This document shows, in pieces, positions 1 to 51,430 of a stretch of DNA of 64,000 nucleotides. The notes below the pieces were generated by a model that saw only the letters and a program-made list of their open reading frames with translations, was not told the DNA's origin and did no database searches. The DNA comes from Phoenix dactylifera (taxonomy: Eukaryota; Streptophyta; Magnoliopsida; Arecales; Arecaceae): positions 6,140,585-6,204,584 of the forward strand of contig NC_052399.1 of the NCBI RefSeq assembly GCF_009389715.1, in the 5' to 3' direction. Position 1 is the first letter of the stretch. Every line of letters begins with the position of its first letter. A program made the translations under genes and the position numbers.

Positions 1-9290
<9,290 letters not shown>

Positions 9291-9356
9291 CTTCTCTCCC
9301 TCTCCTCTTCCCGATCCAAACGCATGCGCTCAATTGCCCAGTCGATGGGCGAAACC

Positions 9357-9387
<31 letters not shown>

Positions 9388-9640
9388 AAAAATTTGAAAG
9401 GAAATCAACCAGTCTTTGTTCCCCGATCGCGATAAGGAATCGAAACCCTCGATCGGAGAGGAGATCGATGGGAGAATTAGGGTTTTTTTGAATGGGAATG
9501 GGGGTTTCGTAGGGTTTGACGAGGGGAGAAAAGAGGGGAAGAAGGGAGAAGAGAGGAGAACAGGGGAAGAGAGAGGCGGTGGGGGTACGTCTAGATTGAA
9601 GGTGGGCGGATGGGAAATTCTCAGGTGAATCAAGATTCGG
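9291..9640 (-). promoter_or_regulatory. VPS4 5' UTR and proximal promoter region
   Basis: Sequence upstream of the VPS4 start codon. Read on the minus strand it is pyrimidine-rich (CCTCTTC tracts at 9520-9580) and leads into the ATG at 9290. It contains a striking homopolymer pair, 23 C then 15 A on the plus strand (9355-9392), which becomes T15-G23 in the transcript if this is 5' UTR. I see no confident TATA box. The length and position of the transcript start are inferred. Confidence 0.5.
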
Positions 9641-9664
9641 TTACCGCGTTATGAAAGCCACGCG

Positions 9665-10980
9665 AGATATATTTACGCATAACATTTATATGCGGCCAGA
9701 AAAAATAAACGATACTGGGCTCACGTTGTACGTCACGTTCATATAGAAACAATATGCGGATGCCGGTACCAAAAAAATATGAAGATGAAAGCCAAATGAA
9801 AATCAGTCGGCGCATAAAATGCTTTTGCTGACATGCTTCTACAAAAACAATTATGCGGAATGGGCATCTGGAACCATAGGGTGCATAAAATTCTTATGCA
9901 AGGAGTATCTATATAGAAACATTATGCGGATGCCGGTACCAAAACCAATGACGCATAATATTCTTATGGGGCTAAAATAGGCGTAGACGATATAATATCG
10001 GAACACTCGAACCGGAAGCGATGTACGCAAAATGAGAATCATTGGGCGCATAAAACTTCTTATGCGAGGAACGTTGTCCACATAGAAAAAATATGCAGAC
10101 ACTAGGCGCTGAAACCAGGGACGCATGACATCACTACGAGATTTCGTCCGCATAGAACATTATATGGATACAGAACGTGGGATCCATAAATTCTTATGCG
10201 GGAGAAAAATCTGCATATAAAATATAATATGCGGACCCTTCGACCTGAGCCAACGTGCGCATAAAAGTTATATACGGTTTCCCGTGCGCACAGAAACTAA
10301 TATGCAGACATCACAACATAAAAACTTTATGCGGGCGAAATATGCATAGGAAAAAAAAAGAGGACACCGGGCAAAATATCAGTCGCGTGCATAAAATTCT
10401 TATGCTCCCTTACGTCCACATAGAAAGTGTATGCGGAGAGGTTCTTGGAATCCATTGGGCGCATAAACATTCTTATGCAAGGAAAAAATGTCCACATAGA
10501 CAAAATATGCAGACACAAGGAGCCTGAACCCATGGGACGCACAAAATGTTTATGTGAATCGTCCGCATAGAAATAGTATGAGGGTACGTGGCAGACGCCG
10601 ACTTGCGCATAAATGTTATATGCGGTGTATGTCTGCATAGAAAGAACTATGCGGACATAGAAGTATAACACTTTTACTCACATAAAATGCTTATGCTCCC
10701 TTAGATCCACATAGAAAAGGTAATGAAAAAATTTCCGCATAGAAAAATATACAGAGACTAAGGCAGCTGTAATGCGTGGGGTGCATAAAATCTTATGCGG
10801 ATTTCGTCCGCATAGAAACAAACATAAGGACATCCTTGGTAATTTTTCGCGTATAAAATTCTTATACGGACACAATCGGCATAGAATACGTAATATGCGG
10901 ACATCTGAACCCTGAAGTCCCGACGCGCGTAAAATTCCTATGCGGAAGCAAGTCCGCATAGTAACAATATGGGAACGTCC
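9665..10980. repeat. Array of about 73-bp units, each with two palindromes (hairpin array)
   Basis: About 15 diverged units in direct orientation. Each unit has palindrome A, close to GCGCATAAAATTCTTATGCG, and palindrome B, close to GTCCGCATAGAAACAATATGCGGAC's arms (GTCCGCATA and TATGCGGAC). The spacer often reads like CACCGGGAGCCTGAACCCAT. The CGCATAGAA landmark recurs near 10081, 10153, 10288, 10418, 10494, 10563, 10634, 10708, 10809, 10880 and 10957, mostly 69-77 bp apart. Units left of 10000 are more degraded. The array starts just beyond the VPS4 promoter and ends where GC-rich unique sequence starts. I do not recognise a named family; long-TIR Mutator-like or foldback elements and a minisatellite are candidates. 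Confidence 0.8.
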
Positions 10981-10984
10981 GGGT

Positions 10985-11280
10985 ATGAGGTTCACGATTG
11001 GGGATGAGGAGCTTCCACGGTTGCAGCGCCGGCAGCACCTCCGCCCACCACGCCACCATCCTAAACTCGGGCAGGCACTGCCGGGGATCTCAATGACAGA
11101 GAGCTCCTCATAGTCTTCCGCCGCCGCGGGTTCCTCGTATCCCCCATCCCTATATTTAGGTCGCCGGCGACCCCATCCAGAGATCTTTCTCTACAGCACC
11201 TTCTTCGGCTTCCTTCCTCCGACTCCAATGCAGCGGGCGGAATATGGTTCTGGTGCCCTAACGCTTTCAGTGAGCCAAAA
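10985..11280. other. GC-rich possible gene fragment beside the hairpin array
   Basis: A sharp change from AT-rich repeats to GC-rich, coding-like sequence. On the minus strand one frame reads LPEFRMVAWWAEVLPALQPW (about 11090-11010) and a second frame reads EEPAAAEDYEELSVIEIPG just upstream of it, as if one old exon had been split between frames. On the plus strand a short open stretch starts at ATG 11229 (MQRAEYGSGALTLS) and meets a donor-like CA/GTGAGC. I do not recognise the parent gene. It could be a captured fragment carried by the neighbouring repeat, or the 5' UTR and first exon of a small plus-strand gene. Confidence 0.3.
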
Positions 11281-12470
11281 ATCTGGTTAGGTTTCTAAAT
11301 ATTGAAATGCCGTAGATCATCCTGTTTATATTTAACGCCATGTGTTCTGCATTTGGAGGATGACGTATAGATATGTTGACACCAATGACAACTCATCATT
11401 CTTATTAAATATAACGAGAGGTCAACTACATAAATCTAGATCTGGTCTGCTGCTTCATAAATCTTTTTCTGATTACCGCTGTATCTTGAGAAAAACCTGG
11501 AACCTTAGGTTTCTTATAAAATATATTTTTTTCTTCTGATTTTGTGTGATATCGAAATTATCTAAAACTGTTAAAAACCTTTCCCAAACAGCAACTTTCA
11601 TAAAATTCTGCAGATATTTTGGAAAATATTTTTACTAAAACTACATGACCAAACAGTACTTTAAGGTTGCTGATAAAAGTACTGCTGATCAGTATGATCA
11701 TCTACTAGCCTCTCAACACTGCAAGTCGGTTGTAGGAGTTACCTATAGAGATGAGGCTTCAGATGTCACCATTGTAAATCAGCTGGAATCAAGAGTTCAA
11801 AGTTACTAGAAGGATCTTCTTCTCCAAATCTTGTCAATTAATCCATGTAGTGAGAATTTTGAATTGGAGATATAAATTATTTATCAATGAACCCATAATT
11901 TTCTATTCTAGTTAATATTTAACAACGTCAGTAACTTTGCTTCATCATATTGGACCAAAAAGATGTTTAATTATTTTATGTAATTGTAGATCTCTTAAAA
12001 GCTCTAATTACAATTGAAGTTTCTTGAGGAAAGAAAACTTTGTCCAGAATCTTAAGAAAAATAGTTCGGTGGCTTTATTTCCTAATATTAACTGGAGTAA
12101 AGTTCGCGCATAAACAATATGATCGGTTATAGAATCAAAGTTTTACACTATGAATCTTTGTTTTGCTAGTCATCTCATCTTAACCTTCTCAATCTTCTCA
12201 ATATCATTTTTGTGCTTTTGGAGCTAACTTCAATGAAGTTTTGTGCTTCTCTTTCAATCAGATCTAATAGTTTCAAAATCCACTGACTTGGCTTGGACCT
12301 GTATTTTAATTTGTCATCCATCAGCTCTTTGAATTCTAACACTCTAATAAGGATATGGTTGTATGCTGTATTTGTTTTATCACTTGGCTTTACCATATAT
12401 TAGAGTTTTACAGAACTATATTTTGTGTTTTTTACTGTCCAACTTGATTGAAGCCTATTTTATTTGCACA
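11281..12470. other. AT-rich non-coding stretch
   Basis: No gene, RNA or clear transposon is visible. Only short chance ORFs occur. If 11229 begins a gene, this would be its first intron. Confidence 0.4.
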
Positions 12471-13563: not shown

Positions 13564-14461
13564 GGGCCCGTTTGGTCCTAGAAATATGATTCCTGGAAAG
13601 AAGATTCTTAGGGCTCGTTTAGTTCGCGGGAAGCATTTTCCCTCCTAGGAATACGATTCCTGGAAAACATATTCCTAGGAAGAGGATGCCTAGGAAAGTA
13701 CTTTTAGCATGTTTGGTTGACCATAGAAAAATGATAAATTTCCAAAATGCTTATATTTGGTTGACCATCCACTTTCCTGAGAAAGTTATGTATAATTCCT
13801 ATTATACCCTTAATAAAAATTAGGTCTTTAATGCATCTTTAATGCTGAAGGGCTTTTTTGGGAAAAAAAATTAAAAATGGAGTGATTCCTGCCTCATGGA
13901 AAAGAAATTTTCCCATGTTTCTCATGGAAAAGACTTTTCCATGAAATGTGGGAATCATATTCCCATGGGAATACAACTTTCCTATCTCTCTTCTTTGAAA
14001 ACTCTAACTAAATAAGAAGCATCTCATTACTTTCCCGTTGACCACACTTTCCTCCCTTCTTTTCCAGCGAACCAAACGAGCTCTTAGGAAGAGAATGCTT
14101 GGGAATGTACTTTTGGCATGTTTGGTTAAACATGGAAAAGTGACAGATTTCTAGAGAGCTTATGTTTGGTTGACCATCCACTTTTCTGAAAAATATATAT
14201 ATAATTCCTTTTATACCCTTAATAAAAATTAGGTCTTTAGTGTCTTTTTAATACTGAAAGGCTTTTTTGGAAAAAAATAAAGATGGAGTGATTCCCGCCT
14301 CATGGGAAAGACTTTCCTATAAAATGTGGGAATCATATTTCCATGAGAATACAACTTTTCCAACTCTCTCCTTTGAAAACTCCAACCAAACAAGAAGCAT
14401 CTCATTACTTTTCCGTTGACCACATTTTTTCCCCTTCTTTTTCCGTAAACCAAATGAGCCT
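13564..14461. mobile_element. Outer Tourist-like MITE, interrupted by a second copy
   Basis: The left end GGGCCCGTTTGGT and right end AACCAAATGAGCCT form terminal inverted repeats, with TAA at both flanks (13561-13563 and 14462-14464). The body (after removing the inner element) contains the same landmarks as the inner copy, including ACCCTTAATAAAAATTAGGT, a GGAGTGATTCC segment and a TCCGTTGACCACA block near the right end. No ORF; a non-autonomous PIF/Harbinger-type element. Confidence 0.75.
13611..14083. mobile_element. Inner Tourist-like MITE nested in a relative
   Basis: A 473-bp element with ends GGGCTCGTTTAGTTCGC and GCGAACCAAACGAGCTC, flanked by TTA on both sides (13608-13610 and 14084-14086). 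It sits about 45 bp inside the outer element. Its interior repeats the outer element's sequence in order and in the same orientation (GTTGACCATCCACTTT, CTTAATAAAAATTAGGTC, GGAGTGATTCC), so both belong to one family. It inserted after the outer copy. Confidence 0.8.
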
Positions 14462-14507
14462 TAAAGGATTTCGCCATGGCTTTTGCCATGAGTTGCATCT
14501 ATACTAG

Positions 14508-36572: not shown

Positions 36573-37254
36573 CACCCCAGTTTTATTTTCTACCCAAAAT
36601 GTGTCTGCAGGATTTGGAGACACCTGCCTCATATGCCTAGGCTCTAAAACAAGCATGTGCGCATACGCGCCGCTCAGACCCCTCCTCGATTTTGTTTTTT
36701 TATTCAAAATACGTCCGCAGGATTTAGAGACATCTGCCTCATATGCCTAGGCTCTAGACGAATCTAGCCAATGTGAAATCTTTCATTTACCCATCCTCGG
36801 ACAAGAGCCGTCCTCGGCTCTGATACCAAAATGTTACGCCTCAGCCTGCGCGGGGCACGTGAGGCACTCAGTGCCCACGTGGGGACCATATGAGGGAGGA
36901 ACATGTGGCTCCCCTGCCAGATCTTGTTCGGTTCCAGAGCCCACACGCGCCGCTCAGACCCCTACTCGGTTTTGTTTTTTTATCCAAAATGTGTCTGCAG
37001 GATTTGGAGACACCCGCCTCATATGCCTAGGCTCTGGACGAGTCTAGCCAATGTGAAATCTTTCATTTACCCACCCTCGAACTAGAGCCGTCCTCGGCTC
37101 TGATACCAAAATGTCACGCCTCAGCCTGCGCGGGGCACGTGAGGCACCCAGTGCCCACGTGGGGACCATATGAGGGAGGAACATGAGGCTCCCCTGCTAG
37201 ATATTGTCCGGTTCTAGGGCCCGCATGCGCCGCTCAGACCCCTCCCTGGTTTTG
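36573..37254. repeat. 280-bp tandem repeat with paired G-boxes
   Basis: Landmark CAGGATTTGGAGACACC..GCCTCATATGCCTAGGCTCT recurs at 36609, 36719 and 36999; GATACCAAAATGT.ACGCCT recurs exactly 280 bp apart (36821-36840 and 37101-37120). The first unit is shortened to about 110 bp. Each full unit holds GGGCACGTGAGGCAC and GCCCACGTGGGG, two CACGTG/CACGTGG G-box-like cores that can pair with one another. The array is interrupted at 37254 by an LTR element and resumes at 41982. Confidence 0.85.
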
Positions 37255-37692
37255 TGATGGGGACATCAGAGCCCTTCATCCAGATGATCCTGAGCCCCCG
37301 GATTGAGTCAGACCCGTTTATTTGCATATTTATTTTATTATTTTATTTCTGGGCTTATTTGCATTTTAGGGTTTATTTGTGGATGATTTTATTTCTGGGC
37401 TTATTTGCATTTTAGGGCTTAGTTGTGGTTTATTTGTGTTATTTGTGGGTTTATTAGGATTTATTTCTGTGTAAGGGGGTTTATGCAAATTGTGTATTCG
37501 GGTCCTATATATAGGAAACTATTTTCATGATTAGGGTTTAATGAAGAATTAAGAAATTTTCTCCCCACCTATTCTCCTCCTCTCTTCTTCTCTTCTCCCT
37601 CTTCTCCTCCTCCTCCTCTTTCTCTTCTCCTTCTTCTTCTGTTCTGATTTAAAATCCCATGGAAGTTTTCCTCCAGATTTGGTGCGGCATCA
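37255..37692 (+). repeat. 5' LTR
   Basis: A 438-bp repeat starting TGATGGGG and ending GGCATCA, with TGATG/CATCA inverted tips. It contains CTATATATAGG as a likely TATA box (near 37505) and a long CT-rich tract before the primer-binding site. Confidence 0.95.
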
Positions 37693-41587: not shown

Positions 41588-41976
41588 GTCAGACCCGTTT
41601 ATTTGCATATTTATTTTATTATTTTATTTCTGGGCTTATTTGCATTTTAGGGTTTATTTGTGGATGATTTTATTTCTGGGCTTATTTGCATTTTAGGGCT
41701 TAGTTGTGGTTTATTTGTGTTATTTGTGGGTTTATTAGGATTTATTTCTGTGTAAGGGGGTTTATGCAAATTGTGTATTCGGGCCCTATATATAGGAAAC
41801 TATTTTCATGATTGGGGTTTAATGAAGAATTAAGAAATTTTCTCCCCACCTATTCTCCTCCTCCTCTCTTCTTCTCTTCTCCCTCTTCTCCTCCTCCTCC
41901 TCTTTCTCTTCTCCCTCTTCTTCTGTTCTGATTTAAAATCCCACGGAAGTTTTCCTCCAGATTTGGTGCGGCATCA
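41536..41976 (+). repeat. 3' LTR
   Basis: A 441-bp near-identical partner of 37255-37692, preceded by a short purine-rich tract (GGGAGGAG) and followed by the TTTTG target duplication. Confidence 0.95.
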
Positions 41977-50100: not shown

Positions 50101-51430
50101 CTAAAACCAGGGAAATGAACTTCAGGACATCCATTGAACCTTAAATTGTACTGGTCATATGGAAATTCTTGAAAGACAAACGTGTCTTAATTTGCTTTTG
50201 TTTTTAACATTGTTTGATACCACAAGGAAAAGTTTGTCCAGATATTGATGCGAATAAGTTAGATATTCTATCTGTATCTTATTTGAAATGTATAAATTTG
50301 TTTGCAGACTTGGATTCATTTCTATATAGTTTCCAATACATGTCATTCCTTTCTACCACGAGCAAATGTTGGCAGAGAAACACTTGTATTTTTCCTGAAG
50401 AGAATCACAAAGTTTGGCTTTTTACTCGTGAGGAATAAGAACAAACTCTGGGTTTTTTGCTTCTCTTCAAGCCACCAGAGCTTCAATAACAATACAGTCA
50501 GGACATTGTAAGACCTACAACTTAATGTTCTAGATTTAAATGGCATCAGGTCTCAAACATAAATCTTGATGTATCATCATAATAGCATTTGGCTATGCAA
50601 CTCCAATTGGCATGATTCTGGATGCTCTAAAAAGCACTTTTCAAGGGCGTTTTTTTGCAATTTATTGATAACCTCAAAGTTATCCGCTTGTAGCTTCTGC
50701 ACCCTTGCATGCCAAATGGTCCCAATCTTGCTGGTTTGCACCTGCACTAGAGATCTTAAGCAGTATCAGTCTTGACAGACGATTACAACATTTGATGGAA
50801 TTAAATTTGGGAACTCCAAACCGTAAGTTGTGCAGGACCTTACTTGATGGAATTATCAAACTTGGAAGCTATGATTAAAAAAGATCATCAGGGAAAGCCT
50901 GGAATTCATTATTAATATCCTGCAAATCATCATGGAAATGACTATGGATCGGTACATCAATCAAACTATGCCACATACTTGCATGCCCCTCAATCAATCA
51001 ATTTGAAAACATACTTAAAAGAGCTCCAAACAATTTAAAAACGAGAAGTAGGGAAATGGTCAAAGACTTTGGGTGAGACATCGGCATTGTTAGGGTGTGA
51101 TCTCCCAACCACTACCTCTCTACCTCGTCGCCTTCGCCACACCATCCAAACCTTGCTGCCTGCCCCATACCATCACTGCCTTCAATATTGCCCATGCTAT
51201 ATTGCTGGTGCCGCCATCACCGCTGCACTGTTGTAGCCATTGTCGCCACTTTTATCATATTATTGCCATCCTGGCTGCCTCCATCATGTCACAGCTGCTA
51301 CTACCTCTTTCGCAACCATCAATATATTTATATTTTAAAATAATTAACTATATCAAATATATTTATATTTAAAAGTTAAATAAAAAATATAATTTTATTT
51401 TTTTATATTTTAAAAATAGAAAAAATGGAA
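47135..51430. other. Long intergenic stretch, little recognised
   Basis: AT-rich with only short ORFs. 48790-49075 carries a short inverted pair (CAGGCTCATCTTG and CAAGATGAGCCTG). On the minus strand at about 50755-50600 an open frame reads SKIGTIWHARVQKLQADNFE and on to a stop, after an AG acceptor-like site; this might be an exon or a transposon remnant. 51090-51310 is pyrimidine-rich, CCATC/GCC-rich, with no recognised product. No RNA gene was identified. Confidence 0.4.

Follow-up and report, generated by a model that had tools for sequence, protein, structure and literature searches.

The 64 000-nucleotide stretch of the Phoenix dactylifera genome analyzed here (C8:6140585-6204584, henceforth the window) carries, just upstream of a VPS4 gene, an array of about 17 directly repeated units on the plus strand (9665..10980), each composed of two short palindromes, A and B. 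The reading that we favor, and to which we give an even chance, sees in the array the decayed remnant of a block of putative DNA-binding sites that is dispersed in the genome and derives from a mobile element. Among the observations behind this reading are half-sites that combine a GC-rich and an AT-rich part and are arranged in inverted pairs. Most likely, the array represents a repeat family that is new but of a generally known type.

The array was delineated using a local HMM profile of the unit together with palindrome searches. The profile identifies 17 plus-strand units, spanning 9676 to 10982 and mostly spaced 70-80 bp from start to start. The A hairpin (CGCATAA..TTATGCG) is followed by a short spacer, the B hairpin (TCCGCATA..TATGCGGA) and a longer spacer. 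Both palindromes are present in each unit, worn to a variable degree, so that there are up to ~34 of them, one per ~39 bp. A preliminary description of this DNA had placed about 15 directly oriented units here, each with two palindromes; the place, the orientation and the two palindromes hold, while the profile raises the count to about 17. The array is far beyond chance. On the plus strand, TATGCGG occurs 13 times within it and 0 times elsewhere in the window. The array contains 13 short hairpins with a score of at least 6; 50 dinucleotide shuffles gave 4.3 on average and never more than 10. With at most 3 mismatches, the A consensus is matched 6 times and the B consensus 4 times, where none are expected. 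The identity between units is only ~63%. Tandem-repeat detection, earlier proposed as a check, did not recover the array: none of the 40 Tandem Repeats Finder rows for the window lies inside 9665-10980, probably owing to the strong divergence of the units. One further word resembling a unit, at 12105, was rejected, since its match is at chance level only (E 6).

For a first test of the stems, we used 65 plus-strand profile matches of at least 10 bits from 7 arrays in the genome. They were taken from 147 matches on both strands, the minus-strand ones being regarded as shadows of the palindromes and left out. Mean identity is 77% for the arms and 46% for loops and spacers, so the palindromes are indeed better kept than the spacers, as had been noted from the window alone. 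The accompanying suggestion that compensating changes or selection for pairing were responsible fared differently. Double changes that keep a pair number 2 against 3.4 expected for A (45 complete units) and 4 against 4.5 expected for B (52 complete units), the expectation being derived from 5000 permutations in which right arms were reshuffled within arrays. A second alignment, made with MAFFT, includes 38 of the 44 longer units (six were omitted by eye: L004:5255, L013:4598, L017:4710, L017:4563, window:9676 and window:10317). It gave 5 such cells against 6.4 expected and a covariation score of 0.084, the same as in shuffles (0.084). Thus, the arms change more slowly than the spacers, and compensation is seen in neither alignment. 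Arms kept in the absence of covariation argue that the sequence of the arms itself was conserved, not the pairing. They would have been kept as sequence motifs, as expected of a protein-binding half-site and not of paired RNA.

These results bear on the possibility that the array is a non-coding RNA or a small-RNA precursor, with hairpins selected as structure. The region 10000-10985 does fold better than its shuffled versions (z -7.25, 20 shuffles). However, in the best fold many units are paired with others far away, and a good fold of this kind would be expected from any array of related palindromes. With both covariation tests negative, we rejected the RNA-structure reading as very unlikely. 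The arms also show a base-specific pattern of decay. Their CpG columns are changed in 111 of 468 cells, compared with 37 of 363 in the remaining G/C columns of the arms and 97 of 969 in their A/T columns. This more than twofold excess fits past methylation, as in methylated repeats.

The array has relatives elsewhere in the genome. A DNA search with the window array detected one further place. A pattern made of the two arms gave 8 matches at 7 places (control 0), and a shorter two-arm pattern gave 37 matches at 27 places (reversed control 0), the window being included in both cases. The search of the genome proposed in the preliminary description has therefore turned up a dispersed set. A query consisting of the array at one of these places (L016) and its flank yielded 16 matches at 10 places, L016 included, on C77, C15, C8, C9 and C4. 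We read 15 loci (the window, L004, L013-L017, L034-L039, L044 and L045). They cover 9 of the 27 places of the shorter pattern; one place found with the L016 query, C15:4662987, was left out. The number of profile units per locus is 18 in L004, 17 in the window, 9 in L017, 8 in L013 and 7 in L016, with 1-4 each in L014, L015 and L035-L039. The C77 locus (L034) has no profile unit, only the GC-rich block described below. No published description of this layout or motif was found among the matches listed in a search of the open literature.

Several other repeats were observed along the way. The window contains a dispersed repeat in two adjacent copies (13611-14463), which matches L035 3772-4244 (82% and 78%) and L045, and a directly duplicated 280-bp unit (36665-37255, 91% matches). 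The same 46-bp repeat unit followed by a CT-rich tract is present at 37340-37645 and 41621-41929, ~4.28 kb apart, an arrangement as expected of the long terminal repeats of one element.

On its left side, the array adjoins the 5' part and promoter of VPS4 (8808..9650, minus strand, 83% identical to C9; ATG at 9290-9288) and begins ~375 bp upstream of this ATG. The assignment of the neighboring gene to VPS4, made earlier from the window, is borne out by the MIT domain of its C9 paralogue. In the 5' leader region of VPS4 (9355-9392), a run of 23 C passes straight into 15 A, which may mark a site of slippage or an assembly problem. On the other side lies a GC-rich block (10999..11141, plus strand) that recurs at other loci. 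It directly matches L016 and L038 and, via L016, also L017, L035, L036, L037, L039 and C77, so that it is common to 9 of the 15 loci read. In C9, the block is located ~0.5 kb upstream of the start codon of a gene whose first exon peptide, starting at c9r 13340, we take to be VPS26C. A later exon matches VPS26C in the PDB (8p0x, E 1.4e-6) and, weakly, Vps26 in Pfam (E 0.11). Among the other exon peptides of this gene, three had no Pfam match and one had an unrelated weak match, and a PDB search with a 21-residue exon gave nothing useful. Longer pieces of the VPS26C gene region accompany the block in L016 and L037, and a short piece is present in C77; in the window, blastn and tblastx searches with the gene pieces and the C9 segment as queries found no VPS26C exons. 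We considered whether the block is coding and rejected this, because its copies differ by single-base indels that break the frame, which speaks for a non-coding nature. Of the frames submitted to Pfam, those from the window and C9 had no match, and one from L016 had a weak sub-threshold match (E 0.22). What had been described as a GC-rich possible gene fragment corresponds to the 5' flank of the VPS26C gene in the duplicated C9 segment.

Two further features were seen. A second GC-rich block lies to the left of three arrays (L036 2340-2465; L037, reverse, 1440-1580; L017, reverse, 4110-4250). L037 and L017, within C15:4.62-4.68 Mb, are local duplicates, both with an L-type-lectin receptor-kinase-like frame (recognized by eye), pieces of VPS26C and array remnants.

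The C9 segment also bears on the age of the array. It is colinear with positions 1-9650 of the window, which comprise VPS4 and what lies beyond (68-85% identity in ten blastn pieces), and has a further match at 50431-51032. In C9, VPS4 and VPS26C are arranged head-to-head, and the segment carries the GC block as well as the remnant of an array (2 units by profile, ~4 by eye). The homology around VPS4 stops 15 bp short of the array in the window, whereas the C9 remnant begins ~1.2 kb beyond the end of this homology. Alignment of the two arrays is poor apart from the region of the last unit (10924..10982, plus strand), the counterpart of which is recognizable beside the GC block in C9. Although these two points call for caution, VPS4, array and block keep the same order in the duplicated segment, and judging from this order the array is probably older than the C8/C9 pair. 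Palms share a genome doubling dated to ~75 million years ago, with syntenic homologues near 86% similarity (PMC10787024). We infer that the C8/C9 pair stems from this doubling.

Such copying with genome segments raises the question of whether any transposon is needed. It might be argued that the array is a host satellite or minisatellite that was born near VPS26C and spread through genome doubling, tandem duplication on C15 and pseudogene formation. The VPS26C-flank GC block shared by 9 of the 15 loci read, the colinearity of C9 with the window and the local duplication of L037 and L017 all speak for this. Tandem units with a fairly regular period are a feature that the array shares with plant satellites and minisatellites. 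However, units are only slightly more alike within arrays (63.4% identity, 163 pairs) than between arrays (62.2%, 540 pairs), an excess reached in 46 of 1000 label shuffles. Satellite-type homogenization within arrays is thus not apparent. Such a small difference argues against local satellite growth, and the array was probably diverse before spreading. The palm arrays further differ from plant satellites in being short and dispersed and in having kept their arms but not their spacers. Moreover, the GC block has no match at L004, L013, L014, L015 and two C16 loci. We consider this explanation unlikely.

The head-to-head position on C9 and the kept arms would also agree with a selected host regulatory array, made of clustered plant transcription-factor sites in the promoter region between VPS4 and VPS26C. 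Yet the C9 segment, which has the VPS26C exons, retains 2 profile units (~4 by eye), whereas the window, which shows none of the exons, retains 17. In addition, many arrays are found elsewhere, one of them inside a broken gene (see below), making a regulatory origin quite improbable.

If the array derives from a mobile element, the element might be recognized by its ends. The preliminary description had suggested the subterminal array of a Mutator-like or foldback transposon. In general terms, a subterminal array of some transposon remains supported, but neither of the two specific types found support. Mutator-like elements are marked by long terminal inverted repeats and a 9-bp target duplication. 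Around 11 arrays, exact inverted 11-mers were either of low complexity or isolated, leaving no Mutator-type terminal repeats (500 bp to the left compared with 3 kb to the right, L017 being covered among the matches listed). Foldback elements, such as Drosophila FB and Arabidopsis FARE, have tandem subrepeats and a variable length, features that they share with the palm arrays. What the palm sequences scanned lack is the inverted pair of arrays around a loop: no inverted second array was present in any of 14 array-bearing sequences. Minus-strand matches in these sequences lie at most 60 bp from a plus-strand match of the same array, with the sole exception of L036 2551-2605 (12.5 bits). The summed score is higher for the plus strand in 13 of the 14, the exception being L035 (15 versus 16) and the difference being narrow in L014 and C16a.

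The closest resemblance is to the subterminal regions of CACTA transposons, the autonomous members of which encode a TNP2-type transposase and a TNPA-like protein. A motif of the CACTA type, partly GC-rich, partly AT-rich and present in both orientations, is seen in the 65 aligned units of 7 arrays, while the element ends were not found. No pair of CACTA..TAGTG ends scoring at least 9/13 and flanked by a matching 3-bp duplication occurs around 11 arrays, within 1.5 kb to the left and up to 12 kb to the right, and no credible inverted repeat surrounds them. This may be explained by old age and decay. In the closest published layout found, that of the soybean CACTA element Tgmt* (PMC2613891), 12 stem-loops are formed by 24 repeats within 732 bp, and the motif likewise combines a GC-rich part and an AT-rich one. 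Tgmt* and the palm array share many short motifs in direct and inverted orientation and a series of stem-loops, spaced ~61 bp per stem-loop in the former and ~39 bp per palindrome in the latter. Unlike Tgmt*, the palm array has a regular A-B double unit and more numerous palindromes. According to the same paper, CACTA subterminal repeats are bound by TNPA-type proteins, and En-1 has a GC-rich stretch beside its repeats, exon 1 with 82% GC. The GC-rich neighbor is thus a transposon exon in En-1 but the 5' flank of VPS26C in the palm. We do not claim CACTA membership; given a layout and a motif type as in CACTA subterminal regions, we hold by analogy that the array would have worked likewise.

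Other mobile elements offer looser parallels. Helitrons begin with 5' TC, end with a 3' hairpin and CTRR, and insert between A and T. Helentron/DINE-1 elements have internal tandem repeats, and we know of none with a double-palindrome unit. Like the palm arrays, they are short, dispersed and linked to gene duplication (PMC4067079).

A junction on C16 would be the best indication that the arrays can insert, either as elements in their own right or as parts of such elements. The two C16 arrays are simpler, having only B palindromes with a 29-bp period, and may represent a separate subfamily. One locus (L044, G000:C16:10546800-10551300) contains a gene for an SDR-type reductase (L044:1300-1991), in the last codons of which the frame is interrupted by B-type palindromes forming a 598-bp array. 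Its three best relatives in the PDB (the best 60 of 315 being considered) align up to residues 185-187 of the 202-residue query, and the array starts where this alignment ends. It both begins and ends on palindrome arms. When its flanks are joined, 2 of 16 junction choices produce a plausible SDR end, VIRVAGYNP-stop. The gene also has a frame shift between its start and the residue block VRADVSD.

The same junction introduces the closest rival to our preferred reading, namely that the array alone is mobile, as a foldback- or MITE-like element consisting solely of palindromes, with the arms CCGCATAG..CTATGCGG as its ends and a length that varies by gain and loss of units. An array bounded by palindrome arms and flanked by the SDR frame and, across the array, by a plausible end of this frame is what this rival would produce, and no larger element was recognized around the other arrays. 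On the other hand, this is the single such junction read and its target duplication is not definable, the two inverted arms of foldback elements are missing, and the set to which the window belongs has a common GC block on one side. We regard this rival as possible, if doubtful. Also doubtful, and rather unlikely, is an unnamed family of plant mobile elements with an array of palindromic putative binding sites as its body, CCGCATAG/CTATGCGG serving both as ends and as internal sites. Such a family would have been active before the palm doubling and again later (C16 subfamily), inserting into genes and carrying along promoter and gene pieces, for instance of VPS26C.

Under the preferred reading of a decayed binding-site block, each half-site (consensus CCGCATAG or CGCATAA) would have served as the binding site of a protein encoded by the element, comparable to the TNPA-type proteins of CACTA. 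Acting jointly, the many sites would have brought the element ends together for transposition and silenced or driven the element. The array would have been already diverse when spreading and older than the C8/C9 duplication, with the VPS26C 5' flank and parts of the gene copied along with it to other places. The window copy, its ends lost, would be a relic between VPS4 and a former VPS26C promoter. Against this reading count the missing CACTA ends and credible inverted repeats around the 11 arrays, the lack of a second array of opposite orientation in the sequences scanned, array sizes ranging from 1 to 18 profile units, and the slightly greater likeness of units within arrays. Some of the 9 GC-block loci may also be ordinary segmental duplicates and not transpositions.

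If the preferred reading is right, it would account for both the odd sequence beside VPS4 and the cut SDR gene. Chains of hairpins in plant intergenic DNA would not necessarily be RNA structures, and the array would be a case, open to dating, in which the binding sites of a transposon have been preserved at the level of motifs and not of stems. Palms would then possess an old dispersed repeat family, made up of binding sites in clusters and not reported by Tandem Repeats Finder in the window, and this family would help to track down the partner protein and the element in palms.
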